Under the pieces are notes generated by a model. The model saw nothing but the letters and a program-made list of their open reading frames with translations, had not been told where the DNA came from and searched no databases. 32,357 bases of DNA from Thermoplasmatota archaeon (GTDB lineage: Archaea; Thermoplasmatota; Thermoplasmata; UBA10834). The DNA is taken from contig JAFGHM010000061.1 in assembly GCA_016930135.1 (NCBI GenBank), positions 1 through 32,357 of the forward strand, read 5' to 3'. Position 1 is the stretch's first letter. Each line of letters begins with the position of its first letter. Of the stretch, positions 29-18,656 are shown in pieces. Position numbers and translations under genes: made by a program.

Positions 29-49
29 CTCTTCGTCACTGGCTGTTTT

Positions 50-1216: not shown

Positions 1217-1367
1217 ACCATGGCTTCCAGCACTCCCTGACGCTCGACCGCTAGCTCGTCCGCATCAATCGACGCAAAGCATCCAGGTAGTCGTCGTGCT
1301 TCTGGATGCCACAATACAACCGTCCGGGAAGCCCCAATTTCTGGCAATCTCGAAAGCGGGTCTGGCC

Positions 1368-1973: not shown

Positions 1974-1979
1974 CTCTAG

Positions 1980-2523: not shown

Positions 2524-2530
2524 CTGGCTC

Positions 2531-3772: not shown

Positions 3773-4010
3773 TTATCGGCTCTCGCTTGATTCTCAGGCG
3801 CCCTGGATAGAGGAGTTTGTACACCAGCTTTAGCCCGTGCCGCCCGAGCACAGGTTCCATATCCGTCAGGCCAGCCTGTATGTCACGGACATCGCCTCGC
3901 AGAATGATGCCTAGACTGGCATCGCATGATAGACCATCTACATCCCCCTGGATTCCTCGTCCAGCCCGTTTTCTACTCCTACTTTCCGCTTCAGTTATGC
4001 TGGCGGTCAT
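3726..4010 (-). CDS. Hypothetical 94-residue protein, first gene of the replication operon
   Basis: The ATG at 4010 is preceded by a clear ribosome site (AGGAGG, spacing 5) and the 3' end overlaps the start of the ATPase gene by 47 nt. No family was recognised. The N-terminus is basic (ESRSRKRAGRG), with a mixed alpha/beta body ending RLRIKREPI. The good ribosome site and overlap argue that it is real. Alternatively this frame is just a long leader for the ATPase. Confidence 0.5.
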   Translation of the reverse strand: MTASITEAESRSRKRAGRGIQGDVDGLSCDASLGIILRGDVRDIQAGLTDMEPVLGRHGLKLVYKLLYPGRLRIKREPIIEPDAVTEGGDRGLD

Positions 4011-4059
4011 AGCCGCCTCCTGGGCCCTCTAAGGCCCTGCGAATGACATGCACTTTTTT

Positions 4060-4071
4060 GCGTAAATAGAT
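4060..4071 (-). promoter_or_regulatory. TATA-like box for the minus-strand replication/recombination operon
   Basis: Read on the minus strand, ATCTATTTACGC lies about 50 nt ahead of the ATG at 4010. It would put the transcript start about 25 nt before that ATG, leaving room for the AGGAGG site. Confidence 0.38.
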
Positions 4072-4641
4072 TGCCCTCATCCTCGCATATGCGACGCCGA
4101 TTTCTGCATCCAGCACTCAAGACCGGCTTCCGTCGTCCCGCTTCGTGTGTACCAAAAAAGGTCGAATTTCATTGCCGTGGCGTAGCATATGAGAATCCGC
4201 CTCCAAGAGCCAGATGGGGGCGAAACGTCCCTACCACTTTCATGAGAACGAGGCCCAGGAAGGGCAAAATGCTCGTGCGACGCAACAGGACCACTCGGAC
4301 CTTCGGTTCTGAGGCCTCTCGGGCTAGATGCATTCCGCCTCGGCGGCTGGCCGAGGGTTCTGTGTGAAGCTCTTGAACACGATTCGTGTGGGGACCCCCT
4401 TGGCCTCAAAAAGACGGCCGAACCCCACTGCAATGGTTCCGTTTCGATAGCATTATAACCCACTTCTCACAGATGAGGAACTGAGACGGCGCGTCGAGAC
4501 AGCATTCCAAGCCGTTGCCTCTACGGAAACGGCTGGCGCATTCTGGTGAGGAACATTGCCTCAGCAGGCGCCCTCACCCGCATGATGCCGTCTTGGGAAG
4601 CTACAGTATCGACACGCCGTGCTCACAATGGAGGTGAGTCT
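4072..4641. other. Gene-poor interval between divergent operons
   Basis: About 570 nt with no convincing gene. Open frames exist on both strands over 4071-4463, but they are arginine/proline-rich, lack ribosome sites and mirror each other. A TATA-like CATTATAAC (about 4449-4457) may start the thioredoxin operon with a leader of roughly 160 nt. The interval divides leftward replication genes from rightward cargo, which would suit an origin or control region, but I see no iterons in it. Confidence 0.4.
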
Positions 4642-4971
4642 GTGAAAACGATACGAACGAAGGAGGAATTTGAGACGGTATGGAGTGAAGCTGGAGCGCT
4701 GGTGGCCTACTTCGGCGCAACGTGGTGCTGGCCGTGCAGGCAGCTCGAGCCGCTCCTGAGGAAGCTTGAGAAGGAGAACACCGGCACCATCTTCGTAAAG
4801 GTGGACATCGACAAGAACGAGGAGCTGTCGGAGACTTTCAATGTCCTGTCCGTGCCGACCTTGCTCCTCGTCAGGAAGGGTAAGCTCCAGAGCAGGATGG
4901 TGGGCCTCCAGAGCTATGCGGCCCTGAGGAAGAAGGCGAAGGGGCTCCTGAAACCCTCAAGGAACGAATGA
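4642..4971 (+). CDS. Thioredoxin-like protein with WCWPC active site
   Basis: A 109-residue single thioredoxin fold. The redox motif WCWPC is at residues 28-32 after the strand ALVAYFGAT. The partner strand IFVKVDIDKN and the cis-proline segment VLSVPTLLLVRKG follow at the usual distances. It should exchange disulfides in the cytoplasm, as there is no signal peptide. The GTG at 4642 was chosen because the full Shine-Dalgarno GGAGGTGA ends 4 nt before it; the frame upstream is unlike a thioredoxin. The common motif is WCGPC; tryptophan in the third place would alter redox potential or partner choice (inference). It is the first gene of a four-gene operon with gaps of 13-17 nt. Confidence 0.9.
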   Translation: MKTIRTKEEFETVWSEAGALVAYFGATWCWPCRQLEPLLRKLEKENTGTIFVKVDIDKNEELSETFNVLSVPTLLLVRKGKLQSRMVGLQSYAALRKKAKGLLKPSRNE

Positions 4972-4984
4972 GGAGGCGGACAGC

Positions 4985-5479
4985 ATGGGCTGGGATTTGT
5001 ACGGCAGGAAGGAAGAGAGCTACTTCAGGGTGAACCTCTACGTATGGCCTCGACTGGGGCTCGCCCTCTACTTCCTGGGCGCCGACACAGAGAAGATGGC
5101 CACAGACAACAGCGGGAAGTACGTCCCCGCAGCGACTGCCAGAGCGTGGGCGGACGCGATTGAGGAGGGTATCGATAGCCTCGGCCTCGCCATCATCTCT
5201 GACTCTTCCTGCGAGGATGACGAGGGATGGTTCCTCATCCCGACGAGCTACGGCAGGAAGGAGGTCCGTCAGCTTCTCAAGGACTTCTACGGGGAGCCGC
5301 AACGGAGACGATTGGAGTCTACGGACGCTGAAGGGCGCTCTAGTATCTCGTACATCGAGCTTGAGGGGCATCGTTCGTACCGGGTGCTGAGAATTGAGCC
5401 TCTGTCGGAGGAGCTGAGAAAGTACCTCCTCGATTTCGCCAGCTTCTGCCGTCGGAGCGGCGGGTTCACTCAATGCTGA
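4985..5479 (+). CDS. Hypothetical 164-residue protein in the thioredoxin operon
   Basis: Not recognised. It starts at an ATG 13 nt after the thioredoxin stop, with GAGGAGG overlapping that stop. The protein is acidic and probably cytosolic, without membrane segments, and has two cysteines near the end (SFCRRSGGFTQC) plus one in SDSSCEDDEGW. The beginning (MGWDLYGRKEESYFRVNLYVW) suggests a small alpha/beta domain. Cysteines could make it a client of the neighbouring thioredoxin, which is speculation. Confidence 0.75.
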   Translation: MGWDLYGRKEESYFRVNLYVWPRLGLALYFLGADTEKMATDNSGKYVPAATARAWADAIEEGIDSLGLAIISDSSCEDDEGWFLIPTSYGRKEVRQLLKDFYGEPQRRRLESTDAEGRSSISYIELEGHRSYRVLRIEPLSEELRKYLLDFASFCRRSGGFTQC

Positions 5480-5492
5480 GGAGGGGGAGTCT

Positions 5493-5594
5493 ATGGGCAA
5501 CCAGAGAGAGCCAATCCTGTCGAGGTTCGCGAAGGGCCTCCTGCTTGGCGTAGTTCTGTACCTGCTGATACAGTCGTTCCTCGGATGGCCCTGA
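5493..5594 (+). CDS. 33-residue single-span membrane peptide
   Basis: The ATG at 5493 follows an AGGAGGGGGA ribosome site and opens 33 codons. A basic N-terminus (MGNQREPILSRFAKG) is followed by a hydrophobic helix (LLLGVVLYLLIQSFLG), so it should insert with its N-terminus in the cytoplasm. Its stop is TGATG, overlapping a possible start of the next frame, and it is evenly spaced within the operon. Function is unknown. Confidence 0.6.
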   Translation: MGNQREPILSRFAKGLLLGVVLYLLIQSFLGWP

Positions 5595-5611
5595 TGTGGG
5601 AGGTGATAGAG

Positions 5612-6397
5612 ATGTCAGGCAGAGTAGTCAAGAGGAATGCCGACAGACTGAGGAAGGGAGAGAAGTTCTTCGATTCCTGGACTCCTCAGTCGGCCTGGGC
5701 CTTGGGCGTCGTCTGCGAGAGGGCAGCAGTGGACTCCTCTCACGGAACTGTCGTTGAGGCCGCCGACACGCCTCTTCTCAGGGCCTTCTGTGGACTAGTG
5801 AAGGAAGCAAGGCTATGTCGGGACCGAAGGACGGTCGTCATTGAGTCACTTCATGTCGCAGAGAGATTGCTCGCCCTAGGAATGGAGGAGGGGGCCTTCA
5901 GCGTCCGGCGAGTCCCGTCCGTTCCGGAAGAGTACGTTCCCTATGTAATCCGAGGTATACTCGACACACAAGGAGTAATAGCTTCCTTCGGGCCGTATCT
6001 AGCCGAACTCTCCTTGGAGTTCCCGACCCGTCAGAAGGCGTGCCTGAGATTCATGCACAGGGAGCTTAAGAGAAGAGGGTATAGCGTCAGAGAGATGTCG
6101 AAGGAGATAGACTTCCTCGGCATCGCCCGTGAGGAGCCCGCGAGCTACAAGTGGACCCTTACGATGTCCAAGCCAGAGGACGTCATCGACTGCTACAAGT
6201 GGCTCTACCGCACGCCTATCGCAGGCCTGAGCTTCAACAGGGCTCAGAGATGGGTATGGTCTCAGCTACATTGGCTCCTGAGAGACCTCGAAGCGTGCTC
6301 TAGGATGCTTAAGGACAAGAAGATGCTCTCAGAGCTTCGGGAAGTCATAAGGGAAGGCAAGAGGGCGAAGCTCATGGGCGATTGGAAAGAACTGTGA
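5612..6397 (+). CDS. LAGLIDADG-type (homing endonuclease fold) protein, free-standing
   Basis: A 261-residue protein with two diverged LAGLIDADG helices. The first is SAWALGVVCERAAV (about residues 29-42), where the usual acidic residue is missing. The second is YVIRGILDTQGVIASF (about 113-128), which keeps an aspartate. The segment VPEEYVPYVIRG before the second helix and the strand AELSLEFPT after it match the family plan. The ATG at 5612 was chosen because GGAGGTGAT lies 5 nt upstream; upstream ATGs at 5585 and 5594 lack that. It is not inside an intron or intein, and with one motif damaged it may bind DNA without cutting. It ends the thioredoxin operon. Confidence 0.65.
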   Translation: MSGRVVKRNADRLRKGEKFFDSWTPQSAWALGVVCERAAVDSSHGTVVEAADTPLLRAFCGLVKEARLCRDRRTVVIESLHVAERLLALGMEEGAFSVRRVPSVPEEYVPYVIRGILDTQGVIASFGPYLAELSLEFPTRQKACLRFMHRELKRRGYSVREMSKEIDFLGIAREEPASYKWTLTMSKPEDVIDCYKWLYRTPIAGLSFNRAQRWVWSQLHWLLRDLEACSRMLKDKKMLSELREVIREGKRAKLMGDWKEL

Positions 6398-6486
6398 ACC
6401 TGAAGCGGTCTAGCCGACGGGCAAGGTAAACACCCCGTAGCCGACGAGGGCTCCCATTGGCTGAGGGGTCCCCGTAGGCCAAGGGG

Positions 6487-6840
6487 TCACGAAGGGTCTT
6501 GCCTTCCTCTCTCGAGGAACTTGCTGAGCGCTATCTTGAAGGGGTCTGCTGAAGGCGCAGCTTCGTCCCCGTCTTTTCCTGACGGTGCACTCGGTGCTGT
6601 AGCTTCCTCGGCCGGTTCCGGTATCGATACCGAGGCGGCCTTCTTCCATTCTTCGAGTCTCTCTCTTCCCAGAGGCGTACGGGGAAAGATGTTCGTGCCT
6701 CCTCCGATATCGTTACAGGAGAAGTACTCCCGGCCTTTCTTGTCTCTCTTCACAATGTGTATCCCTGAGCAGAGAGGGCACTTCAGGTTCTGACCCGACG
6801 GTTCTTCCTCGTCTCTTACGATACGAAGCATATGGTTCAC
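6487..6840 (-). CDS. Zinc-ribbon-like 117-residue protein
   Basis: The N-terminal half holds CPLCSG, then KKGREYFSCND about 20 residues later, a treble-clef or ribbon-like pattern with three visible cysteines and a nearby histidine (GIHIVKR). The second half is alanine/proline/glutamate-rich (EPAEEATAPSAPSG) and probably flexible, ending in a short helix. A TATA-like TTAGAAAT near 6857-6864 would give either a leaderless GTG start at 6840 or a 9-nt leader for the ATG at 6831. Function is unknown; nucleic-acid binding is plausible. Confidence 0.6.
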   Translation of the reverse strand: MNHMLRIVRDEEEPSGQNLKCPLCSGIHIVKRDKKGREYFSCNDIGGGTNIFPRTPLGRERLEEWKKAASVSIPEPAEEATAPSAPSGKDGDEAAPSADPFKIALSKFLERGRQDPS

Positions 6841-7109
6841 TCTGTTGCCGCAGAGTATTTCTAACCTTCGATACCGACACCGAGGCGTTCCTCTGTTGTA
6901 CTATCACCCGAGAGCCCGGTCTTAGCGCTTCTGGTGAACGAAAAGACATACTGTGTGCCCGTCTTGTCGTCGCCAAGGAGATGAGGAACTGGGCTTCTTG
7001 CCAACTCCAGGTCACAGGGAAAGATGCTCTTCAGGGCGGCAATAGCCACAAAGCAACCGTCATTGTTTATCTTCAGGTAATCCCATCAAGTCGGCGACAG
7101 GTAAAGTTA

Positions 7110-7424
7110 TTGACGCAACGTGACAAGCCCTATGAGCCGGACTGGTATAGGATATACGCGGCGTTGCTCTATCTTCAGAGGCATAGAGACAAGCCTCTTG
7201 ATTTCCTCAAACTCAGTCACATTGAGGGTTCCCTGCGTAGCAATCATCCGGAAACGAAGAAGCTTGTTGCGTACTTGATGAAGGAAGGGCTTGCCAGTAA
7301 GAAAGAGGAGGACAAAACCTACTACATAACGCGTGAAGGCGAAGAATGGCTGCATAAGGCCACGCCGGTCTTCGACCGATTCTATCGCTACACAATGCAG
7401 ACCATCCGAGAGAGGATACGATAA
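7110..7424 (+). CDS. Winged-helix DNA-binding protein
   Basis: About 104 residues. A helical N-terminus (PDWYRIYAALLYLQRHRD) leads to a winged helix: the recognition region SNHPETKKLVAYLMKEGL and the wing EDKTYYITREGEEWL, as in many archaeal one-domain regulators. The tail FDRFYRYTMQTIRERIR may aid dimerisation. The frame is open from 6981, but its beginning is unlike a protein. I favour the TTG at 7110, which follows AGGT and lies downstream of a TATA-like TTTATC (7066-7071); the exact start is uncertain. Confidence 0.65.
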   Translation: MTQRDKPYEPDWYRIYAALLYLQRHRDKPLDFLKLSHIEGSLRSNHPETKKLVAYLMKEGLASKKEEDKTYYITREGEEWLHKATPVFDRFYRYTMQTIRERIR

Positions 7425-7432
7425 GGGTCGGG

Positions 7433-8302
7433 CTAACCAAAGTAGATACTTCCGAAGTTGTAGGTCCCTGACTCACTCTCGGCGACTAGCTCTATTGGCG
7501 AACTCCAGTCTACCTCATCCCCGCCTAGGCCTCTCTTGTAGTGAACCCAGTGCTCATTTGCCGCCTCGACAACTCCCTCTTCCAAGACTTCCCTTTCGGT
7601 TTGGACTAGCACTATTCTGGCTGGACCGGGCTTGAAGACGAACCTAAGCCATCTGAGACCCCTGAGAGCATACTCTGAATCTTCCTTCATGGACATGACA
7701 TCTGCGACTGTTGCGATGGGGACAGTCCGAACGAGGACTCTGACATCCTCAACCACAGGGTCCCACGGATAGGATGACCCCTCAAGCACAGCATCAAAAC
7801 GTATCTCCTCTCCTGTCTTCCTCTTGACTCTGAAATCTCTACGGAGGTACTTAGGTCTGTTTTCGAAGTAGTACCCGAACCTGTCATCGCTCTGTGCGAG
7901 ATATTTCAGATACCTGTCCAGGACATTGCTTCCCTGAGGAATCGCCGGATTTGGCTGCCAATTCTTGGCCCTGGCAACTGCGCTCGCGAGGACTCTGTAT
8001 TCGTCTAAGAACGGCTTCTCCCGGCGAGCGTACCCACTTGCGATTACAGAAGCGAATATCACCAACAGTCCCAAGATGACGACCGCGAGGTCATAGTCAG
8101 TCAGCGCAACCCATACCATGAAGATGATAGTCAGAAGAGTAACCAGAATTCCCGCCCAGAAGGCATATGTCAGAACGTATCTTATTCGTCCGACTCTCCA
8201 CATCATCTCTTCGTTGAGTTCGAACACCACAGCAATCGGGTCGCTCGTGGCAACAATCTTGTCGAGGTCCCTATCCAGTATGCTTTCTTCCTCTGTCATC
8301 AT
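7433..8302 (-). CDS. Two-helix membrane protein with large cytosolic domain, unknown function
   Basis: A 289-residue protein. After about 40 polar residues, two adjacent membrane helices (around 41-62 and 66-88, including FWAGILVTLLTIIFMVWVAL) form a hairpin. About 200 residues follow on the same side as the N-terminus; they are beta-rich, with segments such as IRFDAVLEGSSYPWDPVVED and RFVFKPGPARIVLVQTERE. The paired ATGs at 8302/8299 are favoured because AATATAA (8324-8330) sits 28 nt upstream, giving a leaderless message; the frame upstream of them looks non-coding. No family was recognised. Confidence 0.65.
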   Translation of the reverse strand: MMTEEESILDRDLDKIVATSDPIAVVFELNEEMMWRVGRIRYVLTYAFWAGILVTLLTIIFMVWVALTDYDLAVVILGLLVIFASVIASGYARREKPFLDEYRVLASAVARAKNWQPNPAIPQGSNVLDRYLKYLAQSDDRFGYYFENRPKYLRRDFRVKRKTGEEIRFDAVLEGSSYPWDPVVEDVRVLVRTVPIATVADVMSMKEDSEYALRGLRWLRFVFKPGPARIVLVQTEREVLEEGVVEAANEHWVHYKRGLGGDEVDWSSPIELVAESESGTYNFGSIYFG

Positions 8303-8323
8303 CGTGCGCAAGGACGGAATGCC

Positions 8324-8330
8324 AATATAA
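8324..8330 (-). promoter_or_regulatory. TATA box, leaderless promoter of the membrane-protein gene
   Basis: TTATATT on the minus strand starts 28 nt before the ATG at 8302, the spacing expected when transcription begins at the start codon. Confidence 0.5.
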
Positions 8331-8383
8331 GGAAATGGTACACAGTTTACCCAAATCATGTAGGTATTTATTGTACGATTTAG

Positions 8384-8391
8384 ATAAATAT
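8384..8391 (+). promoter_or_regulatory. TATA box, leaderless promoter of the ParB operon
   Basis: An AT-rich box (within TTTAGATAAATATC) lies about 27-30 nt ahead of the ATG at 8415 and is divergent to the membrane-protein promoter 55 nt away. Confidence 0.5.
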
Positions 8392-8414
8392 CCGCCCATT
8401 CCCTGTCCCTACCC

Positions 8415-8765
8415 ATGCAAGGCTGCGAGGAACGGGACATGTCAGGTCGGAATGCCCGGAAAGAAAGGGCTCTCGGTCAAGTCACGCTACAGATTGTGCC
8501 CACGAGGCACTTTGAGAAAAGATTCCTCGAGCGAATCGGAGACTGGGTGCCGACCCCACGTCACGACAAGCCATTCTTCGAATCCGGCTTCCTAGTCAAG
8601 AGCTGGAAGCCGCACACCTACTACCTCGATGTCGAAGGCATAGGCAGGTACGTGTTGGCCGAGAACGGAACCGACGTGATAGGAATCACGGTGCTCCCGC
8701 TGCTCCACTGCCATTCTGATGTTGGCCCGCACCAAGCGCGCATGTTCTTCGTTTTAGGAGGATGA
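8415..8765 (+). CDS. Hypothetical 116-residue protein coupled to parB
   Basis: A small alpha/beta protein. Its body (TLQIVPTRHFEKRFLERIGDW, later YYLDVEGIGRYVLAENGTD and VIGITVLPL) weakly recalls small RelE/DUF4258-like folds, but I could not assign a family. The ATG at 8415 suits a leaderless start; a second ATG at 8439 is possible. Its TGA overlaps the parB start as ATGA (8762-8765), so translation of the two is coupled. It could be a regulator or toxin-like partner of the ParB unit, but nothing in the sequence proves this. Confidence 0.6.
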   Translation: MQGCEERDMSGRNARKERALGQVTLQIVPTRHFEKRFLERIGDWVPTPRHDKPFFESGFLVKSWKPHTYYLDVEGIGRYVLAENGTDVIGITVLPLLHCHSDVGPHQARMFFVLGG

Positions 8766-9781
8766 AATCAATGCCAAAGAACCTGCTACTACGCTTTGTA
8801 CCACTTGGGAAGCTAAGGAAGAACCCGTTCAATCCGCGAAGGACTTTCGACCCTTCTGGAGAAGACGCACTAAGACTCGAAGATATGGCCCAACATATCA
8901 AGAAAGATGGGATTCTGCTGCCTGTTGTCGTCCGCCCCTGGAATGGAGGATACCAGATGGCCGCCGGTGAGAGGAGGCGAATGGCTGCCGAATTGGCAGG
9001 CCTGAAGCAGATTCCTGCAGTCGTCAGGAGGATGGACGACGAAACAATGCGTCGCTATGCAGTCGTTGAGAACGTCCACAGACTTGACCTTACGGACCGC
9101 GAATTGGAGGACGCTATTGGTCGCATCTGGGAACAGGATTACGAGTCGAATGAGCAGTTATCGCAAATGGCTAGCGACCTCGGGATGAACCCAACAAGAC
9201 TCCGTCGGATTCTCATGGCCTACAAAGGACGAAGAGAGAAGCCCAGCGTGGCCAGGCCAGATTTGCCCACTCGTGATGCCGCGATGCTTACAGCACTTGC
9301 CAAGGAAGCCCCAAAAGAAGCGCGACAACTTGCTGAGGCGCGTGCAAAGGGTGCGCTTGAGTCTCGTGAGCTGGACGAGACTGTGGCGATTGTGAGAGCG
9401 GCTCCGAAGGAGCGAAGGCCCGACATTCTCGAACAGGTGAGGCGCGCAACAAAGGTGAAGGTGAAGGCTCGCCGTGAACTCGAACAGACGCTTAGAGAAT
9501 CTGACCGCTACGCAAGAGAGGGTCCGAAGCTAGAGTGGCGCAGGATGCTCAGCGCGGATGAGCGGCTCTTCAACCGCGTCGTTGAACTGCGTGCTGGAAT
9601 CGAGAAGTTCGACATGACCTATCTCGAACTCTTCCAGACCTTGGACCAGAGACTGAAGGCTGTGAAGATACTGGAAGCCGTCCGAGACAACATCGACCGC
9701 ACTCTTACTCTTGCCAGAAAGGCCGAGCCTAGATGGAGGAAGGAATGGACCGAACGTCGAGCAGAACTAGAAGAAGCATAG
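8762..9781 (+). CDS. parB: ParB/Spo0J-family partition protein
   Basis: A 339-residue ParB-like protein. The N-terminal CTP-binding domain has KNPFNPRRTF (box I), GERRRMAAELAG (residues 69-80, box II) and VVENVHRLDLTDRELEDAI (box III). A helix-turn-helix covers about 128-155 (SNEQLSQMASDLGMNPTRL). The C-terminal half is charged and helical with a likely dimerisation coiled coil. ParB proteins clamp DNA at a centromere and normally work with the ATPase ParA; no ParA or Walker-type partner is seen in the element. The start overlaps the preceding stop (ATGA), with GGAGG just upstream. A transcription-regulator role is the main alternative. Confidence 0.88.
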   Translation: MKSMPKNLLLRFVPLGKLRKNPFNPRRTFDPSGEDALRLEDMAQHIKKDGILLPVVVRPWNGGYQMAAGERRRMAAELAGLKQIPAVVRRMDDETMRRYAVVENVHRLDLTDRELEDAIGRIWEQDYESNEQLSQMASDLGMNPTRLRRILMAYKGRREKPSVARPDLPTRDAAMLTALAKEAPKEARQLAEARAKGALESRELDETVAIVRAAPKERRPDILEQVRRATKVKVKARRELEQTLRESDRYAREGPKLEWRRMLSADERLFNRVVELRAGIEKFDMTYLELFQTLDQRLKAVKILEAVRDNIDRTLTLARKAEPRWRKEWTERRAELEEA

Positions 9782-10581
9782 GTCAACAACCGCTTGACGC
9801 TGACGTCCAGTCCTTAAGAGGATGGTTGCGCCGTCGGGGTTGGCAGGGGCCGCGTGGCCCAGTCCAGCGGGCGCTACGAGACGCACTTAGACGATTCAAG
9901 GAAGCGGACAAGGACACCTTCACCCTACGCGAGCTGATGGCAGAGGCCGGCCTCGACTACGACAGCAAGTCCGACTACATCGCTGCCCTACAGTTCATGT
10001 CTCGAATGCGTGCTACTGTCACAGACTTCTCTACATGGTTCTGGATGCAGCCACAATACAAGAAGTGTGTTGATGACGGGCTCACTGACAAGAGGGTCTT
10101 CAAGAAGCTGGTAACAGTAATGACAAGCTACGAGATATTCCCTGTCTACTTCGATGCCAATTCAGATAGCTATCGGCTGTTGACTCTGGAGGGATGGGCG
10201 TATCTCGCTCGTAGAAGAGCGTTGGCAATGCGAAACGAGATTGTTCGACGCGTGGAGGAACTCAACATAATGCAGCGCGAATTTCCGATGCTCAGGGAAT
10301 TGTATCCGGCGCCAGCACTACCTACGGATGGCCAATTCATCCAGTTACCTGAGACTACAGGTGTCATATGCCAAGAATGCGGTGTGGCCTTCACGGACGA
10401 GAATTCTCTCAGCGTTCATATGAAACGCCGTCATCCTGAAGTCAAATCATCGCCTGACAAGTCTGACCCGCCGCCGGATTGTCCCTTGTGCAGAGTCCCC
10501 CTCAGTGAAATGGAAGCTGGAGACTACCAATGTCGCGAATGCAGACAGATATTCAGCAGGGATGAAATGAATGCCGAGTAA
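9745..10581 (+). CDS. Helical DNA-binding-like protein with C2H2 zinc finger and zinc ribbon
   Basis: A 278-residue protein. The N-terminal 150 residues are helical with a probable winged helix (DTFTLRELMAEAGLDYDS). Residues 209-230 are a classical C2H2 finger: CQEC, 12 residues, H, 4 residues, H (VHMKRRHP). A four-cysteine ribbon follows (CPLC and CREC, residues 246-266). The start overlaps the end of parB by 37 nt; the ATG at 9745 has GGAGG 5 nt before it. Third gene of the ParB operon, it could be the DNA adaptor or regulator of that unit, comparable in place, not in sequence, to the AspA adaptor of the archaeal pNOB8 system. Confidence 0.72.
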   Translation: MDRTSSRTRRSIGQQPLDADVQSLRGWLRRRGWQGPRGPVQRALRDALRRFKEADKDTFTLRELMAEAGLDYDSKSDYIAALQFMSRMRATVTDFSTWFWMQPQYKKCVDDGLTDKRVFKKLVTVMTSYEIFPVYFDANSDSYRLLTLEGWAYLARRRALAMRNEIVRRVEELNIMQREFPMLRELYPAPALPTDGQFIQLPETTGVICQECGVAFTDENSLSVHMKRRHPEVKSSPDKSDPPPDCPLCRVPLSEMEAGDYQCRECRQIFSRDEMNAE

Positions 10582-10697
10582 GCTGTGCTTCTGACCAGCA
10601 GCTCCCTGACCGGCTTGCCCTCGCTGTCTACCGGCACCAGGACCACGGCAGGACCGAGGGAGTAGGAGATAATCTCATTTTCGGCCGCGTGTAGCAT
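10524..10697 (-). CDS. Possible 57-residue protein, leaderless
   Basis: The minus-strand frame from the ATG at 10697 begins MLHAAENEIISYSLGPAVVL and reads like a small beta-strand protein until about residue 40. It then runs antiparallel into the 3' end of the zinc-finger gene. A TTAAGAAA box about 25 nt upstream would suit a leaderless start. The last 18 residues may be read-through of an older, shortened gene. No family was recognised. Confidence 0.3.
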   Translation of the reverse strand: MLHAAENEIISYSLGPAVVLVPVDSEGKPVRELLVRSTAYSAFISSLLNICLHSRHW

Positions 10698-10802
10698 GAC
10701 TGCCGGTGACAGAGTTTCTTAACCCCCTACCACCATTCGGGGGCGGGGGACTCGACCGTTGTGGGATAGGCTCGTTCGTGAAGGCACTGAGCGAGGGAGA
10801 GG

Positions 10803-11021
10803 ATGAGCAAGAGGGACAAGCTGCAGAGGCACGTGGTTTCTGACCCAAACCACTTCTGGAGCGTTAGGATTGTGTTCTTCGTGGGGTTGGTGGCGTTCCT
10901 CAATGGTGTCGGCTTCATGTACGTGTCGAAAGACTACTGCCACCCATTCTTTGTTATTCTGGCTCTGGGGGGGTTTATCACGATGTGGCTATGTACGAAA
11001 GACCCTTCGTGGAAGAAGTGA
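10803..11021 (+). CDS. Small two-span membrane protein (72 residues)
   Basis: A basic N-terminus (MSKRDKLQRH) precedes two hydrophobic helices (VRIVFFVGLVAFLNGVGF and HPFFVILALGGFITMWLC), and the tail is DPSWKK. GGGAGAGG stands just before the ATG. The function is unknown. It lies between the ParB operon and an HNH gene on the same strand. Confidence 0.6.
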   Translation: MSKRDKLQRHVVSDPNHFWSVRIVFFVGLVAFLNGVGFMYVSKDYCHPFFVILALGGFITMWLCTKDPSWKK

Positions 11022-11127
11022 GGTTGTGAAGTGAATGTAGTACGGGTGAGCTGACAGGGTACCGGAGGAAGAATCCATCTATGAGAGATTTGATACTTCC
11101 GCCTGAGTGTGAAGAAGGAAGGTATGG

Positions 11128-11283
11128 TTGAGGGACGATGGAAGATGCAAACGGTGCGGCAGCCGACAGAATCTCGAGTTCGACCACATCATCCCAGTGA
11201 CCAAGGGCGGTGGCAACACAGAGAACAACATTGAGCTGCTCTGCAGGTCGTGTAACGCGAAAAAGTCCAGCTCCATCAAGTGA
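11128..11283 (+). CDS. HNH nuclease domain, very short or frameshifted at the 5' end
   Basis: The 51-codon frame encodes a complete core HNH motif: RCKRCGS, LEFDHIIPV, GGGNTENNIELLC, RSCN. The two cysteine pairs bind structural zinc and the histidine and asparagine form the active site. The only start available in frame is TTG at 11128, because a TGA lies at 11110-11112. Another frame begins at ATG 11081, with GGAGG upstream, encodes MRDLILPPECEEGRYG and stops at 11129-11131, exactly where the HNH frame begins. A one-base shift would fuse them into a typical 65-70-residue HNH protein, so this may be a recent frameshift or a sequencing error. Confidence 0.6.
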   Translation: MRDDGRCKRCGSRQNLEFDHIIPVTKGGGNTENNIELLCRSCNAKKSSSIK

Positions 11284-11355
11284 CCCGTCAATCCTTGTCG
11301 AGGCTCACGGGCGGGTGAATCGGAGTGCAGGCTTAAGTACATCTACGGGGCCATG

Positions 11356-11760
11356 CTAGGTGAGTCCGACATCCTTGCGCAGCTTCTCAGCACCTGAGGA
11401 ATCGTCTCGACGCTCCATCCGCTCGGCAATCAGTTCCGTCTTATGTCTCAGTTCCTTCATGCAGGTGCCGCACACATCTGCCTTGTTGTTCTTGAGCATC
11501 TCTGTGTCAGAAGCTATGCCCCACTCCTTTTCCTCTTGAGACGAATCTGTCTCTGCTTCTTTCATTCTCTTCGTACGTGCTTCGCGCACCAATTCATCCT
11601 CTCGGCTAGGATAGACCCTCACAAGAGCTGAATAGAGGATTCTCTGCCCTTGGCTGTCGATGAAGCAGCGCTCGTGGAAGGGCTTTTCGCACACAACACA
11701 AGTGGTAGAGGAGTCTCCCCAACCTATCCTCTTCTCGCAGTACGTACACTTCTTCGCCAT
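11356..11760 (-). CDS. Zinc-finger protein with charged coiled-coil tail (134 residues)
   Basis: The N-terminus has a paired-cysteine treble clef: CTYCEKR, CVVCEKPFHERCF, resembling RING/PHD-like cross-braced fingers. A long charged helix follows (REDELVREARTKRMKEAETD), and a third CxxC (DVCGTCMKEL) lies near residue 98. The ATG at 11760 starts right at the zinc domain. It is convergent with the HNH gene. Such fingers serve in protein or nucleic-acid binding; no specific role can be given. Confidence 0.65.
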   Translation of the reverse strand: MAKKCTYCEKRIGWGDSSTTCVVCEKPFHERCFIDSQGQRILYSALVRVYPSREDELVREARTKRMKEAETDSSQEEKEWGIASDTEMLKNNKADVCGTCMKELRHKTELIAERMERRDDSSGAEKLRKDVGLT

Positions 11761-11867
11761 CTTCCCGTTCGGCTAAGCCCTGAGGGCATGATAAGCCTTT
11801 CCCGAGAATCGAGGCAGAGCAGGTCATCCCGGCGTTCGACGGGGCCATGCTGCTTCCCCTCGTGCTT

Positions 11868-12216
11868 GCGGTTACCTTGCTTCTGGTCGCGGTAACCGTG
11901 CGACTGAGGGCCAAGAAGGGGTAGGATGCGACCAGAGAGCCTTTGTCGGGGCTACGGAGCCTGTGTGCAAGGTTACCGTGCTTCCTCGAACTCCTGAATC
12001 GCCCTGATTCTCTCCTTGGTTGGGGGATGAATACCTCCACCGATGAACCACATGATTCGATAGGACAAGGATGTCCTGTCGCGTGTTCATGTTCTGTGGA
12101 TGTGTCCTTAGAACCTATCCACTGCGCGGTTACCTTCGGTTACCCTTCGGAAGGCTGGCTAGAGGCCATTTCCATGCCCTGAAGAGCATGTCGTGCGTCC
12201 AATGCAAGGTAACCGC
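11868..12216. repeat. Cluster of GGTTACC/GGTAACC heptamers (iteron-like)
   Basis: Heptamers occur at 11870-11876, 11891-11897 (inverted), 11971-11977, 12128-12134, 12138-12144 and 12208-12214 (inverted). CGGTTACC at 11869-11876 and GGTAACCG at 11891-11898 form an 8-bp inverted repeat with a 14-nt loop. GCGGTTACCTT (12126-12136) and AAGGTAACCGC (12206-12216) form a perfect 11-bp inverted repeat. Elsewhere in the window the heptamer occurs only singly (for example 2244 and 19198). Confidence 0.7.
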
Positions 12217-12225
12217 GTCTCTAGG
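12126..12225 (+). repeat. Duplicated ~100-bp unit, copy 1
   Basis: This unit aligns with 14781-14877 in the same orientation, with roughly four of five bases matching by eye. Shared blocks are GTTACCTTCGGTTACCCTT, GCTAGAGG, TCCATGC, GTGCGTCCA and TGCAAGGT. Both copies begin and end with the GGTTACC-type heptamers. Confidence 0.75.
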
Positions 12226-12408
12226 GGCCTCTCACGACTCGACAGGCTCACGGGTCGTAACGCAGCCACCCGCTCGAAGTACAGTAGAGCCAACATGCCC
12301 TTCCGAGTGTCAGCACGAAGTCCGTTGATGAAACCCCGGCAATATAGCTTGCAAGCGTTCCTGTAGCCGAATCGTATGATACGACAACCAGGATGTCTTG
12401 TAGAAGAG

Positions 12409-12427
12409 ACCTCTATGTTGAAGTGTC
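12409..12427 (+). repeat. 19-bp direct repeat, copy 1
   Basis: ACCTCTATGTTGAAGTGTC is identical at 12409-12427 and 13861-13879. Weaker similarity continues about 25 nt further (CGCG, then CATAGCATC versus CATAACATC). The two copies flank the Nmad3-like gene and the four-helix membrane gene. Confidence 0.7.
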
Positions 12428-12495
12428 CGCGCGCCTCGACATAGCATCAACGGTGTGAGGGAGCATGAGACTCGAAAGAGAGAGACCATGGACAG

Positions 12496-13230
12496 TCAAC
12501 GATGTCCCTCTATGCGCTCTTCCAGAATGCGTATCCTCGACGCGTCTTTGATGAGGCGACATGCTCTTGTGTTACTGCCTACGAAGGATATGTCTGTCAT
12601 GCCTTTGCGCTTCTTGAGGCGGCTTCCGTCGGCTGCTAGCAGCACTTGGCTCATCAGCTCTCCATTGAATGGAACAGCGTGAATGAAGCGACTCGATTCG
12701 CTGGAGCCGACAAAGACCCAGAAATTGTGAGGCTCGAGGTAAGGATTGAGCTTCCAGCGCAACACGTGCGCATTCATTCTCACAGTCGCGGCAAGGTCTG
12801 GGTTGGCAACGATATCAGATTTCTTGACAACCTTATCAACCACAAGTTTCCCAATGAGATAGAAGCCTGCTGAACCCCAGCCCTTGTTCTCGTTCCATTC
12901 AACCAGTCTTGCGAGGAAGAAAAGGCTGTCTCCCCCGGCCAGCTTCCGCAGATTCGCAGCCCTTGAGTTGTTCTCAGGGATATCGCCATATGTGAAGGTC
13001 TCAAACTCAGGGTCGTTGTGCATAGCCTGGTCCAGATAGTTCTGCGGGATGAAGTCCTCAGGCGGTCGGGTGGACAGGCGTCTGAAGGACGAGTACCTTG
13101 GCAGACCGTCGACGTAGCCTTCGGATATTGGGACGAACTCGAACGTGCGGTCACCGAATAGTGGGCTTCTGAGAGCTCCGTGTGATAGGTTCGCACCAAC
13201 ATTGATGATTGCGGCCTGATGAAAAGCCAT
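12496..13230 (-). CDS. Nmad3-like protein (nucleotide-modification-associated domain)
   Basis: A 244-residue protein resembling 'nucleotide modification associated domain 3'. Matching parts are HNDPEFETFTYGDIPENN (about 71-88), KLAGGDSLFFLARLVEW (about 96-112), GFYLIGKLVVD (about 121-131), NAHVLRW and FWVFVGSSESSRFIHAVPF (about 168-186). Nmad proteins were named from gene neighbourhoods with DNA-base modification enzymes in phages and defence regions; their reaction is not established. No base modifier was found beside it. It is the only minus-strand gene of the cassette, divergent from the membrane gene at 13412. Assignment is by memory of the motif pattern. Confidence 0.6.
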   Translation of the reverse strand: MAFHQAAIINVGANLSHGALRSPLFGDRTFEFVPISEGYVDGLPRYSSFRRLSTRPPEDFIPQNYLDQAMHNDPEFETFTYGDIPENNSRAANLRKLAGGDSLFFLARLVEWNENKGWGSAGFYLIGKLVVDKVVKKSDIVANPDLAATVRMNAHVLRWKLNPYLEPHNFWVFVGSSESSRFIHAVPFNGELMSQVLLAADGSRLKKRKGMTDISFVGSNTRACRLIKDASRIRILEERIEGHR

Positions 13231-13368
13231 ATTCTCTCAACGAGTATGCTCCTGGGGGGTTATGATGTTTTGCGGATGGCCCTTCGAGAGCCCTCGATTT
13301 TGAAATGCCCATGGCTGCTCGTCTGAGGTCCCGCTGGCCATGACATCACCGTAGGACCACTTCAGCAC

Positions 13369-13396
13369 AACATCCATAGGGAAGGAAGGACGATTC
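13369..13396 (+). promoter_or_regulatory. Conserved upstream element, copy 1
   Basis: AACATCCATAGGG, then a purine stretch and CGATTC, 43 nt before the ATG at 13412. The same layout recurs at 14403-14431, and the first ten bases recur at 13896-13905, each time 34-43 nt ahead of a start codon. It may be a promoter or operator shared by the three genes. Confidence 0.55.
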
Positions 13397-13411
13397 TGGC
13401 CAGGGGAAGAC

Positions 13412-13861
13412 ATGGCAAAGCATCGAGTCAACATATTGTGTTGGGTGGGCGCAGTCATCGGCTTGGCTGCAATATTCTCAACCTGGGTCAAAATCGGCTA
13501 CCTATTCTGGGGAACTGAACTGAATCTAATCGATGTCTTGAACCATGCTGAGGATTCACTTCTCGTAGCTGGATGCTGGTTGTTTCTTGCAGGGACTCTG
13601 ATAGCATTTCTATCTCCAGAGGGCGGAACCCTTCAATTAGCTGGTGTTGTCCTATTTACCTCATGGTTTGTTGGTGAAACCGACAAGATGCCCTCAGGAG
13701 CTGGGCCTTACATGGGACTTGCTTCTGCTGTCCTTGTCATGGCAAGCTTTGCAGTGCCATTGGGAATTGGATATGGCGGAAGGAAGGTTAGGCTCAGAGA
13801 GAGATTCCTTGCCATTGGTTCGATACCAGAGTCTGTCGATTCCCCAACACCCGAAGAATGA
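13412..13861 (+). CDS. Four-helix membrane protein (149 residues)
   Basis: Four hydrophobic segments are clear: WVGAVIGLAAIFSTWVKIGY, LLVAGCWLFLAGTLIAFL, LQLAGVVLFTSWFVG and GLASAVLVMASFAVPLGIGY. A cytosolic basic/acidic tail follows (RKVRLRERF to PEE). GGGGAAG precedes the ATG. The family was not recognised. Small polytopic proteins next to nucleotide-related proteins are common in phage-defence pairs, but no effector motif is visible. Confidence 0.65.
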   Translation: MAKHRVNILCWVGAVIGLAAIFSTWVKIGYLFWGTELNLIDVLNHAEDSLLVAGCWLFLAGTLIAFLSPEGGTLQLAGVVLFTSWFVGETDKMPSGAGPYMGLASAVLVMASFAVPLGIGYGGRKVRLRERFLAIGSIPESVDSPTPEE

Positions 13862-13879
13862 CCTCTATGTTGAAGTGTC
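13861..13879 (+). repeat. 19-bp direct repeat, copy 2
   Basis: Exact copy of 12409-12427. Its first base is the last base of the membrane-protein stop codon, and it lies just ahead of the second upstream element. Confidence 0.7.
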
Positions 13880-13895
13880 TCCGCGTCTTCATCAT

Positions 13896-13905
13896 AACAT
13901 CCATA
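13896..13905 (+). promoter_or_regulatory. Conserved upstream element, copy 2 (core only)
   Basis: AACATCCATA lies 41 nt before the ATG at 13937, preceded by CAT as at 14400. The GGG...CGATTC part of the other copies is absent here. Confidence 0.45.
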
Positions 13906-13936
13906 TCTGGCCTAGTCCAATCAGGAGAATGAGGAT

Positions 13937-14362
13937 ATGGCAATGAGATGTTGGAACTGTGGCATAGTGACAAGAGTTGGTACGGAGCTGTGTGATGCTT
14001 GCGAACGTGGTTTTCTTGCCGAAGCCGCGAAGCACCAGTCTTATACACTCGGGGAAATCATGGCGGAAATCAAGAAGCATGATATTGAGATGCGCGCCAT
14101 GTACGAGAACAACAAGGACAGATTCGGACATGCCACATTGGCTACGGCGATACTCTCTGGGCTAGTACTGGCCATTACGGGAATCGCAGGTGTAGCGACA
14201 ACCATTGAGGACTGGACGAAGCTAGGGGAATGGTTGACCTTTCAGTCAGCTTGGATTCTTGTTTGCGGCGGTGCAGCGATTCCCTTTGTGGTGGAAATGT
14301 ACTGGCTCTGGGCGCGGTGGAAACAGACCAAGACGGTAGCAGAGGGGCGTTGCATACCTTAG
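13937..14362 (+). CDS. Zinc-ribbon membrane protein (141 residues)
   Basis: The N-terminus has CWNCG and CDACERG, a four-cysteine zinc ribbon (residues about 5-25). A charged helical stretch (EIMAEIKKHDIEMRAMYENN) and two membrane helices follow (ATLATAILSGLVLAITGIAG; SAWILVCGGAAIPFVVEMYW). AGGAG precedes the ATG. The ribbon and the C-terminus should both face the cytoplasm. This zinc-sensor-plus-membrane layout occurs in many archaeal small proteins without known role. Confidence 0.65.
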   Translation: MAMRCWNCGIVTRVGTELCDACERGFLAEAAKHQSYTLGEIMAEIKKHDIEMRAMYENNKDRFGHATLATAILSGLVLAITGIAGVATTIEDWTKLGEWLTFQSAWILVCGGAAIPFVVEMYWLWARWKQTKTVAEGRCIP

Positions 14363-14402
14363 GACACATGATGGGTAAGCCCGAGACGGAGTTCCCTAGC
14401 AT

Positions 14403-14431
14403 AACATCCATAGGGGTGAAAGGGCGATTCA
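14403..14431 (+). promoter_or_regulatory. Conserved upstream element, copy 3
   Basis: AACATCCATAGGG, then GTGAAAGGGCGATTC, 34 nt before the ATG at 14437. About 23 of the 28 bases match the element at 13369. Confidence 0.55.
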
Positions 14432-14436
14432 TACTC

Positions 14437-14760
14437 ATGGCGCGACAACGAGGAAAGGGAAAGCCCCTCGAGGAGCCATGTGCCATATGTGGCGAGATGC
14501 GATGGACTGATGTCGCTCATTTCCCTAGAAGGAAGCGAGACGGTGCACGAGATGAGGGGACTGTCTTCCTGTGCCCGACCCATCACAAGCTGCTGGACTC
14601 AGGGCGAATCTCAAGAAAGGAGTTCGAGGTTCTGATGAACAGCGAGAAGTTCCGAGGGAATTCTTCGTCAGTTGAGGAGTTCGTCGAGTGGGCGCACGAA
14701 GAGGGGTATCCATACGCACTCTCAGACCTCAGGGACAAGTTCTGGGATTACAAGGGATAG
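14437..14760 (+). CDS. HNH-type nuclease-like protein (107 residues)
   Basis: The sequence CAICGEMRWTDVAHF followed about 22 residues later by LCPTHHKLLDSGRIS fits a compact HNH fold: a CxxC pair, the DVAH active-site histidine and a CxxHH zinc/metal knuckle. The C-terminal half is acidic and helical (VEEFVEWAHEEGYPYALSDL). The frame is open from 14230, but that part runs over the previous gene; the ATG at 14437 fits the conserved upstream element. It differs from the HNH frame at 11128. Nuclease activity is inferred from the motif only. Confidence 0.65.
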   Translation: MARQRGKGKPLEEPCAICGEMRWTDVAHFPRRKRDGARDEGTVFLCPTHHKLLDSGRISRKEFEVLMNSEKFRGNSSSVEEFVEWAHEEGYPYALSDLRDKFWDYKG

Positions 14761-14780
14761 CACGTCGACTTCTGAGAAAC

Positions 14781-14877
14781 GCGTTACCTTCGGTTACCCT
14801 TGAGAACGCGAGCTAGAGGGTATCTCCATGCGCTGAGGAGCCTCCTGTGCGTCCAGTGCAAGGTTACCGCTTCTAGG
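14781..14877 (+). repeat. Duplicated ~100-bp unit, copy 2
   Basis: Direct-orientation homologue of 12126-12225. It keeps heptamers at 14792-14798 and 14862-14868 and a one-base variant (CGTTACC) at 14782-14788. The terminal inverted repeat of copy 1 is not perfect here. The interval to 14995 holds no gene I can support. Confidence 0.75.
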
Positions 14878-14995
14878 ATGCCTTCATGGACTAGGCAGGC
14901 TCGTGGGTTCCAGCACAGCTGTAGTCTCCTGAGAAGAACCATGGAGGAGGAAAGGCGATTCGTAGCAATGGATGTCGGCAAGTTGCTGAAGATGG

Positions 14996-17900
14996 TTAAC
15001 CAGGCTTCCTGCGCATATCTCTGCGGAGCCTGCTCCTCGCGACTATAGCGACGAGGAACATCAGCGCTAAAACTGGAACTATCACTGTCGAGAACTCCGG
15101 TATGACTTCCCAGACCTCGACATTCATCTCCGTGATGTTGTTCAAGCCTTGCGTGTCACGGACCTCGAGTCGAACGGTGTAATTGCCAGGAACTGAGTAT
15201 TGGTGATGGGCAACCTTCTCGGTGCTCCAGTCGGTGTCCCAGTTGCCGTCACCGTCGAAATCCCAGCGAACCTGCAGCACCTCAGCGAAATCCTCGAAGT
15301 CCACAGATGCACCAGAATCAAACATGAAGAATACATCCAGACTCCCGACGGGAGGCGATGCAGACATATGAGCCACTGGGGCAAGATTCGGCAGTTCGTT
15401 GATTCCGCTTGGAAGGCTGGCAGACCCAACTGCTTCAGAACCAGAGACCACCGTCAGCTCAATCGCTGGGTCTGAGGTGTTGCCAAGGTCATCCCAATCT
15501 ACGACGTCGAACTCGTATGAAAAACCTTCTTTCAACAGCAGGCCATTTGCACAGAAGGTTGTGTTCACATCCAGTCCACTCGATAGTATCATCAAGTCAA
15601 GCTGAACGCTCTCTTCAGAGACGTCCAGGCTGAATCCATTCTGCGTTGGCGATACCAGATAGGAGTAGTTGCCTTCGCTTGTCATGTTCAACCCATATCC
15701 ATGTCCCACCGGCGTCCCGCTCTCGTTTGTGGACCATAGAATCATGAGTGCGGATTCTCCTGAGCACGGAGGGTCGACAGTGAAATTCACAGTCCTAGGA
15801 ATAGCGTAGACTTGCATATCGTTCTCATCAATACCTCGACTGCCCGGAATCCCCATCACAAACTCCTTCGTGGTGCTGTCGAAGTAGCTCTCTTCTTGTG
15901 TCAGTGTATCCACAACAACTGCATTCTTCTGCGAGGCTACAAGGTAGTAACCTGCCGAGGTCATGTTAATCCAGCCCCTGTCCCATTCCCATGGCCAAGC
16001 GTTCCAGAAGAACCAAGACTTCTCGATTGCTGATGGTGTTTTTACCTTGATGGATGAATAGGCGTAGAGATGATTGGTGTAGTGGAGAGTCTTGGACGTT
16101 GTGTTGTATTGAGCATACCTAACTTCGTTGGGATAGTTGGGGTCTGAAACATTGATATAAACATTGCCATCGGACCCGTAAGTCAGACCCCACCCAACGA
16201 CTGCATGCATCCTGCTAAGGTCCAACATGTCTGGCAAGTCAGGATACAAGGCCAGTATCAATGGCGAACCATTTGAGATTGAACTGGTGATTGCGTCAAA
16301 TTCCTCGGATGCATTCAGACCTACCCAGTCAAATCCTACAGTGTGCCCAGGCTCCCACAACTGGTGAACCATTATCGCAAGAGTTGCATTCGTCAATTCG
16401 CTGTAGCCTCTCGATGATTTCTTCAGTTCGTGGGTGAATTGAGCGCGAGGCGTTTCGTCGGGAATAACTGGATATGAAGCATTTCCCAGCCAATATCTCT
16501 CAAAATATGCAACAGCGGTGCTAGACATTCCATAACAATTGCCCCCCGGCTGCCAATCCGTCCCTCTGTTCTCGAAATCATAGGTATCCCGGTCCACTCT
16601 CCATCCAGTAGGCATGTATTCTGACGGGGGCGGAACAGACAGAACCTCTACAGCTGCTCCCTTGAGGACACCCCAGGAAGGGTAGTACCCGCTCTTTGTT
16701 GCCAATGCTTCGAGCCGGTCCAATTGGTTGACGAATACATATGGAGCGTGATAGGTTGTCTCGAAAACCCCATCGAATCCGGTTAGGCCCTTTTCTGGCT
16801 CTAAGGAACCATTGACGGCGCTTATCACGATTCCTGCATTGTAGACACTGCCTACTCCGTCTGTGACATGGACTTCAACCCTAGTACTGCCTCCAGCTTT
16901 CACACTTCCTTCTTCAATCTCGAACGAAACGTACAGAGTCTTCACGACAATGTCCTCGGAGACTCCTCCTGTAAGACCACCGCTATCCTTGACCTCCAGA
17001 CTCACAGTGTATTTCCCAGCACTTTGATAGGTATGCTGAGCAGTCTTCGTTGTCGACCAATCCGTGTCCCAGATTCCGTCCGTCTCCCAATCCCACCGGA
17101 CTTCAAGCACATCTGAAGAATCTTCCGCGTCATGCGACCAATCACCGTCTACCGAGATTGTCAAGACGTCGATAGTGGAATACATCCATAGGAACGATGC
17201 AACAGGCGGCGTATTGGTGCTGGGGTATGGTTCCATCAGCGGATAGTTGTCCTGGCTGTCCGCATCGATGACATAGGGCGTGTCACCGATGCCGTCTCCA
17301 TTACTGTCTGTTCCCCCGTAGTCGGACCAGTAGTTGCCACCGCTAGGATACCCATCATCCCATAGGTTCACGGTCCCTTGGTCGTCCCTAGCCTGCCAGC
17401 CATAGTACAGATTCCCAATGAGGTTGTTGTGATACACCACCGCTCCACTTGTCAACACAAGACCGATTCCAGCTCCATTGCCAGTAATCTCGTTCTCCTG
17501 AATCTTGAGGTCCGCACAGCCATAGGAGAACATCCCATAGCCATTGCAGTCTGACACATCATTCGAAACAATACTGATATGCTGAGAAGACCAAGAATAG
17601 ATTCCATACTGGCCTATATACGAGACCCTTGCGTTCTGGATTGTGACCGTATCCACCATCATGAGGCCGATTCCGACATCCGTGCCTGATATCTGGACAT
17701 CTGCTATCCTGACGTTGCTGCAGTCCACGATTAGCAGTTGACCAACCTGAATTGAGGCGACCTCAAGACTGTCCTTTTGGGCGTAGAAGTAAACAGGCTT
17801 GCCGTTCACAGTGTTGTCTGATGAAATAGTGTGTGAGACGAAATACTGCAGTTCGGTTGACCCTCCCGCCCAAATGAAAACACCGTTCGATGTGAATGTG

Positions 17901-18406
17901 TTTCCCGTGACTACACAACTGGTGGAACTCCCCAACCATAGCCCATGCATGTGATTGTCATGAATGCTGTTTCGGACAGCACTGCAGAAGGACGATGAGC
18001 TGAATGTGATACCATAGGAGAAACCGAAAACTTCGATAGAATCCACGGTGCCGTGTGTGACTCCAGAAAAACGGACACCATAGTCAGGAACAAAGGATGT
18101 GCCATCAAGGTAGACGTTTCGAATAATGAAGTAGGATGTGGTTCCTTCTATTGTTATGGCATTGTCAGAATGGACACTAGCTGCAATTGACCAACCCTCG
18201 ATAATGTAAGGGTCCGACAGCGTTCCGCTACCACCAGTGACACCGTTTGCTGCTGTGAATCCAGAATCTCCGTTGACCACAATCGGACTATGTGCGGTAT
18301 ATGCCGAGGCTCTCTCAGGCACGACCGATATAAGCATAGCGAATGACGTTGCACTCATCAGGAATACTAGAACGACAGCTGCCACTTTCCTCCTCGAAGG
18401 CATCAT
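14996..18406 (-). CDS. Secreted, C-terminally anchored NosD/PKD protein with papain-like peptidase domain
   Basis: A 1136-residue surface protein. Order: signal peptide (1-36, AAVVLVFLMSATSFAMLI); NosD-like right-handed beta-helix (about 40-395) ending with the family mark GGNYWSDYGGTDSNGDGIGD; PKD domain (about 400-485); Ig-like domain (about 490-590); a C39/papain-like unit with cysteine in GGNCYGMSST (near 621), histidine in MHAVVGWGL (near 734) and aspartate in NVSDPNYP (near 753); a second PKD domain (about 1010-1095); and a tail IPEFSTVIVPVLALMFLV plus RSRLRR. That tail resembles the PEF-type archaeosortase signal. It probably works outside the cell on proteins or in adhesion. It is the last gene before attR, so it travels with the element. 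Confidence 0.82.
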   Translation of the reverse strand: MMPSRRKVAAVVLVFLMSATSFAMLISVVPERASAYTAHSPIVVNGDSGFTAANGVTGGSGTLSDPYIIEGWSIAASVHSDNAITIEGTTSYFIIRNVYLDGTSFVPDYGVRFSGVTHGTVDSIEVFGFSYGITFSSSSFCSAVRNSIHDNHMHGLWLGSSTSCVVTGNTFTSNGVFIWAGGSTELQYFVSHTISSDNTVNGKPVYFYAQKDSLEVASIQVGQLLIVDCSNVRIADVQISGTDVGIGLMMVDTVTIQNARVSYIGQYGIYSWSSQHISIVSNDVSDCNGYGMFSYGCADLKIQENEITGNGAGIGLVLTSGAVVYHNNLIGNLYYGWQARDDQGTVNLWDDGYPSGGNYWSDYGGTDSNGDGIGDTPYVIDADSQDNYPLMEPYPSTNTPPVASFLWMYSTIDVLTISVDGDWSHDAEDSSDVLEVRWDWETDGIWDTDWSTTKTAQHTYQSAGKYTVSLEVKDSGGLTGGVSEDIVVKTLYVSFEIEEGSVKAGGSTRVEVHVTDGVGSVYNAGIVISAVNGSLEPEKGLTGFDGVFETTYHAPYVFVNQLDRLEALATKSGYYPSWGVLKGAAVEVLSVPPPSEYMPTGWRVDRDTYDFENRGTDWQPGGNCYGMSSTAVAYFERYWLGNASYPVIPDETPRAQFTHELKKSSRGYSELTNATLAIMVHQLWEPGHTVGFDWVGLNASEEFDAITSSISNGSPLILALYPDLPDMLDLSRMHAVVGWGLTYGSDGNVYINVSDPNYPNEVRYAQYNTTSKTLHYTNHLYAYSSIKVKTPSAIEKSWFFWNAWPWEWDRGWINMTSAGYYLVASQKNAVVVDTLTQEESYFDSTTKEFVMGIPGSRGIDENDMQVYAIPRTVNFTVDPPCSGESALMILWSTNESGTPVGHGYGLNMTSEGNYSYLVSPTQNGFSLDVSEESVQLDLMILSSGLDVNTTFCANGLLLKEGFSYEFDVVDWDDLGNTSDPAIELTVVSGSEAVGSASLPSGINELPNLAPVAHMSASPPVGSLDVFFMFDSGASVDFEDFAEVLQVRWDFDGDGNWDTDWSTEKVAHHQYSVPGNYTVRLEVRDTQGLNNITEMNVEVWEVIPEFSTVIVPVLALMFLVAIVARSRLRRDMRRKPG

Positions 18407-18433
18407 CTCCCCCAGGAGCGAAACCGACTCGGT

Positions 18434-18445
18434 CCATATATAGAC
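18434..18445 (-). promoter_or_regulatory. TATA box of the surface-protein gene
   Basis: On the minus strand GTCTATATATGG lies 28-39 nt ahead of the ATG at 18406. The predicted leader is around 10 nt and contains GGGGGAG next to the start. Confidence 0.55.
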
Positions 18446-18530
18446 TATGCCAGTGTGGTCCTCACTTTTATACAGAGAAAAGGGTTTGCGGCAGCCTGCG
18501 CACTGGATTGATTTCCAGCCAGTCTCCGGA

Positions 18531-18552
18531 GTTCAAATCCCGGCGGGAGCAC
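18531..18552 (+). repeat. attR: 22-bp copy of the tRNA 3' end
   Basis: Identical to 7-28. The bases before it (CCGGA) cannot complete the T stem, so this is not a functional tRNA but the distal attachment site of the element. Confidence 0.88.
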
Positions 18553-18656
18553 TCTTTCGACCATACAATAGGCCTTGGAGGCCGCGAGCTAATGTCCGAG
18601 GAATTCACCCTGAAGGCAATGGTTATTAGAAGCCTTGGATATTGGACGACTGCATC

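Follow-up and report, generated by a model that had tools for sequence, protein, structure and literature searches.

Six copies of the heptamer GGTTACC/GGTAACC lie within positions 11870-12214 of the 32,357-nt window analysed here (the whole of contig C73), and this cluster is statistically real and specific to the integrated element that carries it. The heptamer field may well be a by-product of locally duplicated sequence and a decaying gene within the cargo region (~11.8-15 kb) of this tRNA-Glu-integrated element, a reading in which our confidence is evenly balanced. An intergenic segment of ~140 bp containing GGTnACC words (repeat D1) is present as two diverged copies, with 11960-11981 perhaps the remnant of a third; the adjoining broken-off end of a surface-protein gene contributes two further words through its Ala-Val-Thr codons; and the cluster was perhaps kept as a set of sites to which a protein of the element binds, the best candidate being an orphan ParB. 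The function proposed in a first-pass annotation of this DNA, that of a replication origin or centromere, is unlikely.

The element occupies positions 1-18559 (~18.5 kb) and is identified as integrated by an integrase gene together with a direct repeat of the tRNA-Glu 3' end at both borders (D3; 2-35 and 18526-18559). The tyrosine recombinase is encoded at 50-1216 on the minus strand (Pfam PF00589, 5.8e-19; PHROG integrase, 1.1e-27), and its best integrase model is archaeal XerA. At the end of another contig of the assembly, C25, is a tRNA-Glu-like gene, after which come the bases with which the window opens, and the two contigs probably join at this tRNA-Glu border. ARAGORN makes no call for the tRNA-like copy at the end of C25, which when read by eye would be an intron-containing tRNA-Glu(CTC); two other contigs each have a tRNA-Glu(TTC) whose 3' end is identical. 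Beyond the element border are chromosomal genes for TrmO and then his genes, the latter recognised from their translations. A search for the empty integration site by way of the flanking TrmO gene found no adjacent tRNA in the genomes of five relatives, showing that this flank is not syntenic, and no close relative of the element itself was found.

The six heptamers are at 11870 (+), 11891 (-), 11971 (+), 12128 (+), 12138 (+) and 12208 (-), the same places at which the first-pass annotation had counted six within 350 nt. Ten copies are present in the whole window against 1.85 expected, and among all 7-mers of the window this one forms the densest 350-bp cluster; in 400 first-order Markov shuffles of the window no 7-mer of any kind exceeded five per 350 bp. 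The 1.83-Mb assembly, which is 85% complete, holds 57 copies, scattered, the next closest pair being ~450 bp apart. The earlier claim that the cluster stands far above the scattered copies elsewhere is thus upheld, and the genome-wide count that had been suggested as a check revealed no second cluster and no equal density anywhere else in the 1.83 Mb. Across the genome the heptamer is under-represented, the control word with its letters reversed occurring 128 times.

Closer inspection of the arrangement is less favourable to an ordered array. Spacings between successive heptamers are irregular (21, 80, 157, 10 and 70 bp), and their orientation is mixed. Two inverted pairs had been described, and both exist: the arms CGGTTACC and GGTAACCG are separated by 14 nt, and the second pair by 69 nt, although the arms of the latter are 12 bp long and not 11. 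The word GGTnACC is palindromic about its middle base, however, and that base alone decides whether two copies are called inverted or direct. Nor are the sites independent: of eight heptamers between 11.8 and 14.9 kb, five belong to D1. The description of the region as an iteron-like field therefore does not hold, given the irregular spacing and the contributions of a repeat and a coding relic.

D1 is present in two copies in the genome, both on the plus strand. Copy a (12128-12266) contains the heptamers at 12128, 12138 and 12208 and the half-site GCAAGGTAACC at 12204-12214; copy b (14783-14919), located between the HNH and NosD genes, contains heptamers at 14792 and 14862 and the half-site GCAAGGTTACC at 14858-14868. 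The copies are 76% identical over 140 columns and 82% identical over a gap-free stretch of 92 nt, and the heptamers of copy b are at places matching those of copy a, save that the first has been lost through the loss of a G. D1 is absent from the 18 family genomes and ~300 class genomes searched, and no relative turned up when viral and genome contigs were scanned with patterns; loci L016 and L035 were rejected as relatives, each having one short chance match. Like short dispersed intergenic repeats, D1 consists of diverged non-coding copies in gene gaps with no encoded protein, but with two copies genome-wide, both in one element, it is not an amplified family. A coding origin for D1 was rejected: the peptides read from frame 2 (+) and frame 1 (-) resemble each other between the copies, but only 8 of 17 substitutions fall at third positions, the gaps break the frames and there is no Pfam match. 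Cassette sites of the attC type, whose consensus is GTTRRRY, were likewise rejected because GTTACC does not match it.

Duplication in this segment extends beyond the two copies of D1. Site 3 (11967-11981, +), a 15-bp palindrome without mismatches, GCAAGGTTACCGTGC, that contains the heptamer at 11971, shares a 14-bp identity with 14856-14869 at the D1 right end, and 11960-11981 is perhaps what is left of the end of a third D1 copy. Two other intergenic pieces, D2 (13364-13396, +; partner 14398-14430 at 85% identity and a weak copy at 14929-14961) and D4 (copy a, 12403-12448, +; partner 13853-13901 at 82% identity), are also duplicated in the same segment, which indicates that duplication is general here; both look like shared leaders of short genes.

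The remaining two heptamers of the cluster, at 11870 and 11891, are Ala-Val-Thr codons within a stretch at 11811-11924 (+) whose translation, EAEQVIPAFDGAMLLPLVLAVTLLLVAVTVRLRAKKG ending at a stop, has the character of the C-terminal membrane-anchor tail of a surface protein. Judged from its translation, its codon-position GC and its resemblance to another such tail, this is the remnant of a broken surface-protein gene. A stop precedes the tail, the codon periodicity is strongly of the coding type, and the tail is 34% identical to the C-terminus of a 963-aa frame in the genus mate G006; the element's own NosD protein has a similar C-terminal tail and a weak match to archaeal PEF-CTERM. The region described at first pass as gene-free is thus not wholly so, 11811-11924 being the exception. 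The relic includes two half-sites on the minus strand, site 1 (GCAAGGTAACC, 11866-11880) and site 2 (GCACGGTTACC, 11887-11901).

We infer that duplication and decay suffice to account for the cluster, with no need of selection for an array of sites. In favour of this are the five clustered heptamers carried by the D1 copies, the restriction of D1 to two copies in this genome, the two heptamers within the coding relic, the presence of the further duplicated pieces D2 and D4, and the lack of a heptamer array at distant loci with a parB/zinc-finger gene pair (below). Three observations count against it. All six occurrences of the half-site GCANGGTWACC in the genome fall in these 3 kb of the element (11.87-14.87 kb), and occupation of five of 14 half-site places has a chance probability of ~2e-6, albeit for a motif picked after looking; in 18 family genomes the same motif occurs 0-7 times each, scattered and never clustered. 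The ends of D1 appear better kept than its middle (3/47 against 14/45 substitutions; Fisher p 0.003), but when the boundaries are chosen blind the difference is not significant (p 0.115). Lastly, the relic 13-mer GCGGTTACCTTGC is identical to the inverted end of D1, a match that codon use alone does not predict.

The confinement of the half-site to this segment means that a binding-site array, of a kind other than an origin or centromere, is possible. We consider it a credible though clearly less probable alternative that the sites are a binding array for a DNA-binding protein of the element, most plausibly the orphan ParB, which would load at the palindrome GCAnGGTnACCnTGC, spread or clamp nearby, and regulate or insulate neighbouring cargo genes, in the manner of VirB at virS, rather than segregate DNA. 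The ParB gene is at 8762-9781 (+), and assignment of its product to the ParB CTPase fold comes from matches to PF02195 (1.2e-23) and TIGR00180 (2e-26) and from GERR and ENxxR motifs aligned with those of relatives; a structure predicted without an alignment had a pLDDT of 52 and was unusable. Mobile elements commonly carry orphan ParBs (PMC12704722), and VirB, a ParB relative, acts at virS, upstream of promoters (PMC10770331). The present protein resembles these systems in its fold and motifs, in having no ParA and in its location on a mobile element, but differs in that the candidate site is known by sequence alone. Besides the restricted half-site, a binding array is favoured by the one complete 15-bp palindrome, at 11967, and by the W-centre change between the D1 copies, which leaves the palindrome intact. 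Against it, only that one site is palindromic well beyond GGTnACC, and two of the sites lie within the coding relic.

The parB gene is followed by a gene for a C2H2/zinc-ribbon protein (9733-10581, +; weak zf-C2H2 matches), of which peptide-pattern scans found no relatives in genome or viral contigs. A parB gene and a zinc-finger/zinc-ribbon gene lie side by side in three distant genomes of the class, in surroundings that otherwise differ: L024:7083-8830 (genome G218), L036:14437-16452 (genome G066, matched by a G117 contig) and the window at 8762-10581. Neither the heptamer array nor any comparable cluster of palindromes was found near parB in L024, L025 or L036, which weighs against a ParB-binding array. 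The first-pass annotation had held that absence of the heptamer at this place in related elements would count against its proposal; the array is indeed missing from L024 and L036, but these are distant (25-32% identity), and their sites could differ from the heptamer. As a side observation, the contigs G066:C32 and G117:C44, assigned to different families, both comprise 19,748 bases and show no difference in the 11.7 kb that was compared, a pattern suggestive of cross-binning in one assembly. Thaumarchaeal integrative-conjugative elements (PMC6563490) are likewise integrated in archaeal genomes and code for a ParB-like protein, but there parB lies beside a TFIIB gene rather than one for a zinc-finger protein, and in the present element no genes for conjugation were recognised.

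The fuller proposal, in which parB and its zinc-finger neighbour form a conserved two-gene unit and the orphan archaeal ParB loads at a parS-like array (GCAnGGTnACCnTGC) within the integrated element that encodes it, acting on the expression of cargo genes and not on segregation, is more speculative, and we think it improbable. If the sites do bind the ParB, they would show where an orphan ParB loads on an archaeal mobile element, and its role could be tested directly by gel shift; if they do not, the case is a caution that a striking heptamer cluster can arise from one duplicated intergenic segment and a coding relic.

That the sites serve as parS, the centromere of a partition system of ParABS type acting on an excised circular form, is a good deal less probable still. 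A ParB is encoded ~2 kb away and the sites are repeated, one of them being a full 15-bp palindrome, but no ParA was found among the 19 element proteins scanned with Pfam, and the ParA-binding motif (L/F/I)G(K/R)G(L/F/I) of PMC12704722 is, by eye, absent from the ParB. Moreover, 2.6 kb separate D1 copy b from the main cluster, and this copy has unrelated genes on both sides. With the distant parB/zinc-finger loci also lacking the array, the candidate centromere finds no support.

An iteron-type replication origin is very unlikely. Several short repeats do lie close together, as in iteron plasmids, and the observation that one element encodes both a ParB and a replication-type ATPase is supported, the latter being a DUF3987/primase-helicase-like protein (2531-3772, -; PF13148 at 3.6e-6, slightly below the curated cut-off; phrog_10514 DNA primase, 2.8e-10). 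This gene is ~8 kb from the array, however, and the repeats are neither regular nor helically phased direct repeats, and no initiator gene adjoins them. The array lies upstream of the start of a gene for a small zinc-binding, C1/Prok-RING-like protein (11356-11760, -; weak PF00130/PF14446 matches), and its other neighbour encodes an Nmad3-domain protein (12496-13230, -; PF18754, 1.5e-15). There is no adjacent AT-rich unwinding tract: the array region has 56% GC and the lowest 60-bp GC in 11761-12495 is 43%, against minima of 28-33% at 8332 and 2539. GC skew, which had been put forward as a check near 12 kb, follows gene direction and shows no switch there. The candidate origin is accordingly not supported. 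Equally improbable is D1 as a structured non-coding RNA closed by inverted GGTTACC ends, which was rejected since the closing stem of 12-13 bp predicted for copy a is not formed by copy b (whose two changes break pairs without compensation), no fold is common to both copies, fold z-scores are only -0.3 to -2.8 and no Rfam family matches.

The leaders of the short genes in the cargo region have a counterpart elsewhere. A motif like CCATAGGGGnGnAAGG precedes short genes in the window at 13364-13396, 13886-13901 and 14398-14430, and is possibly a common promoter or ribosome-binding leader. A related leader occurs six times in L025, from another genus of the same family, at 4383, 4727, 5073, 5871, 6118 and 9183.
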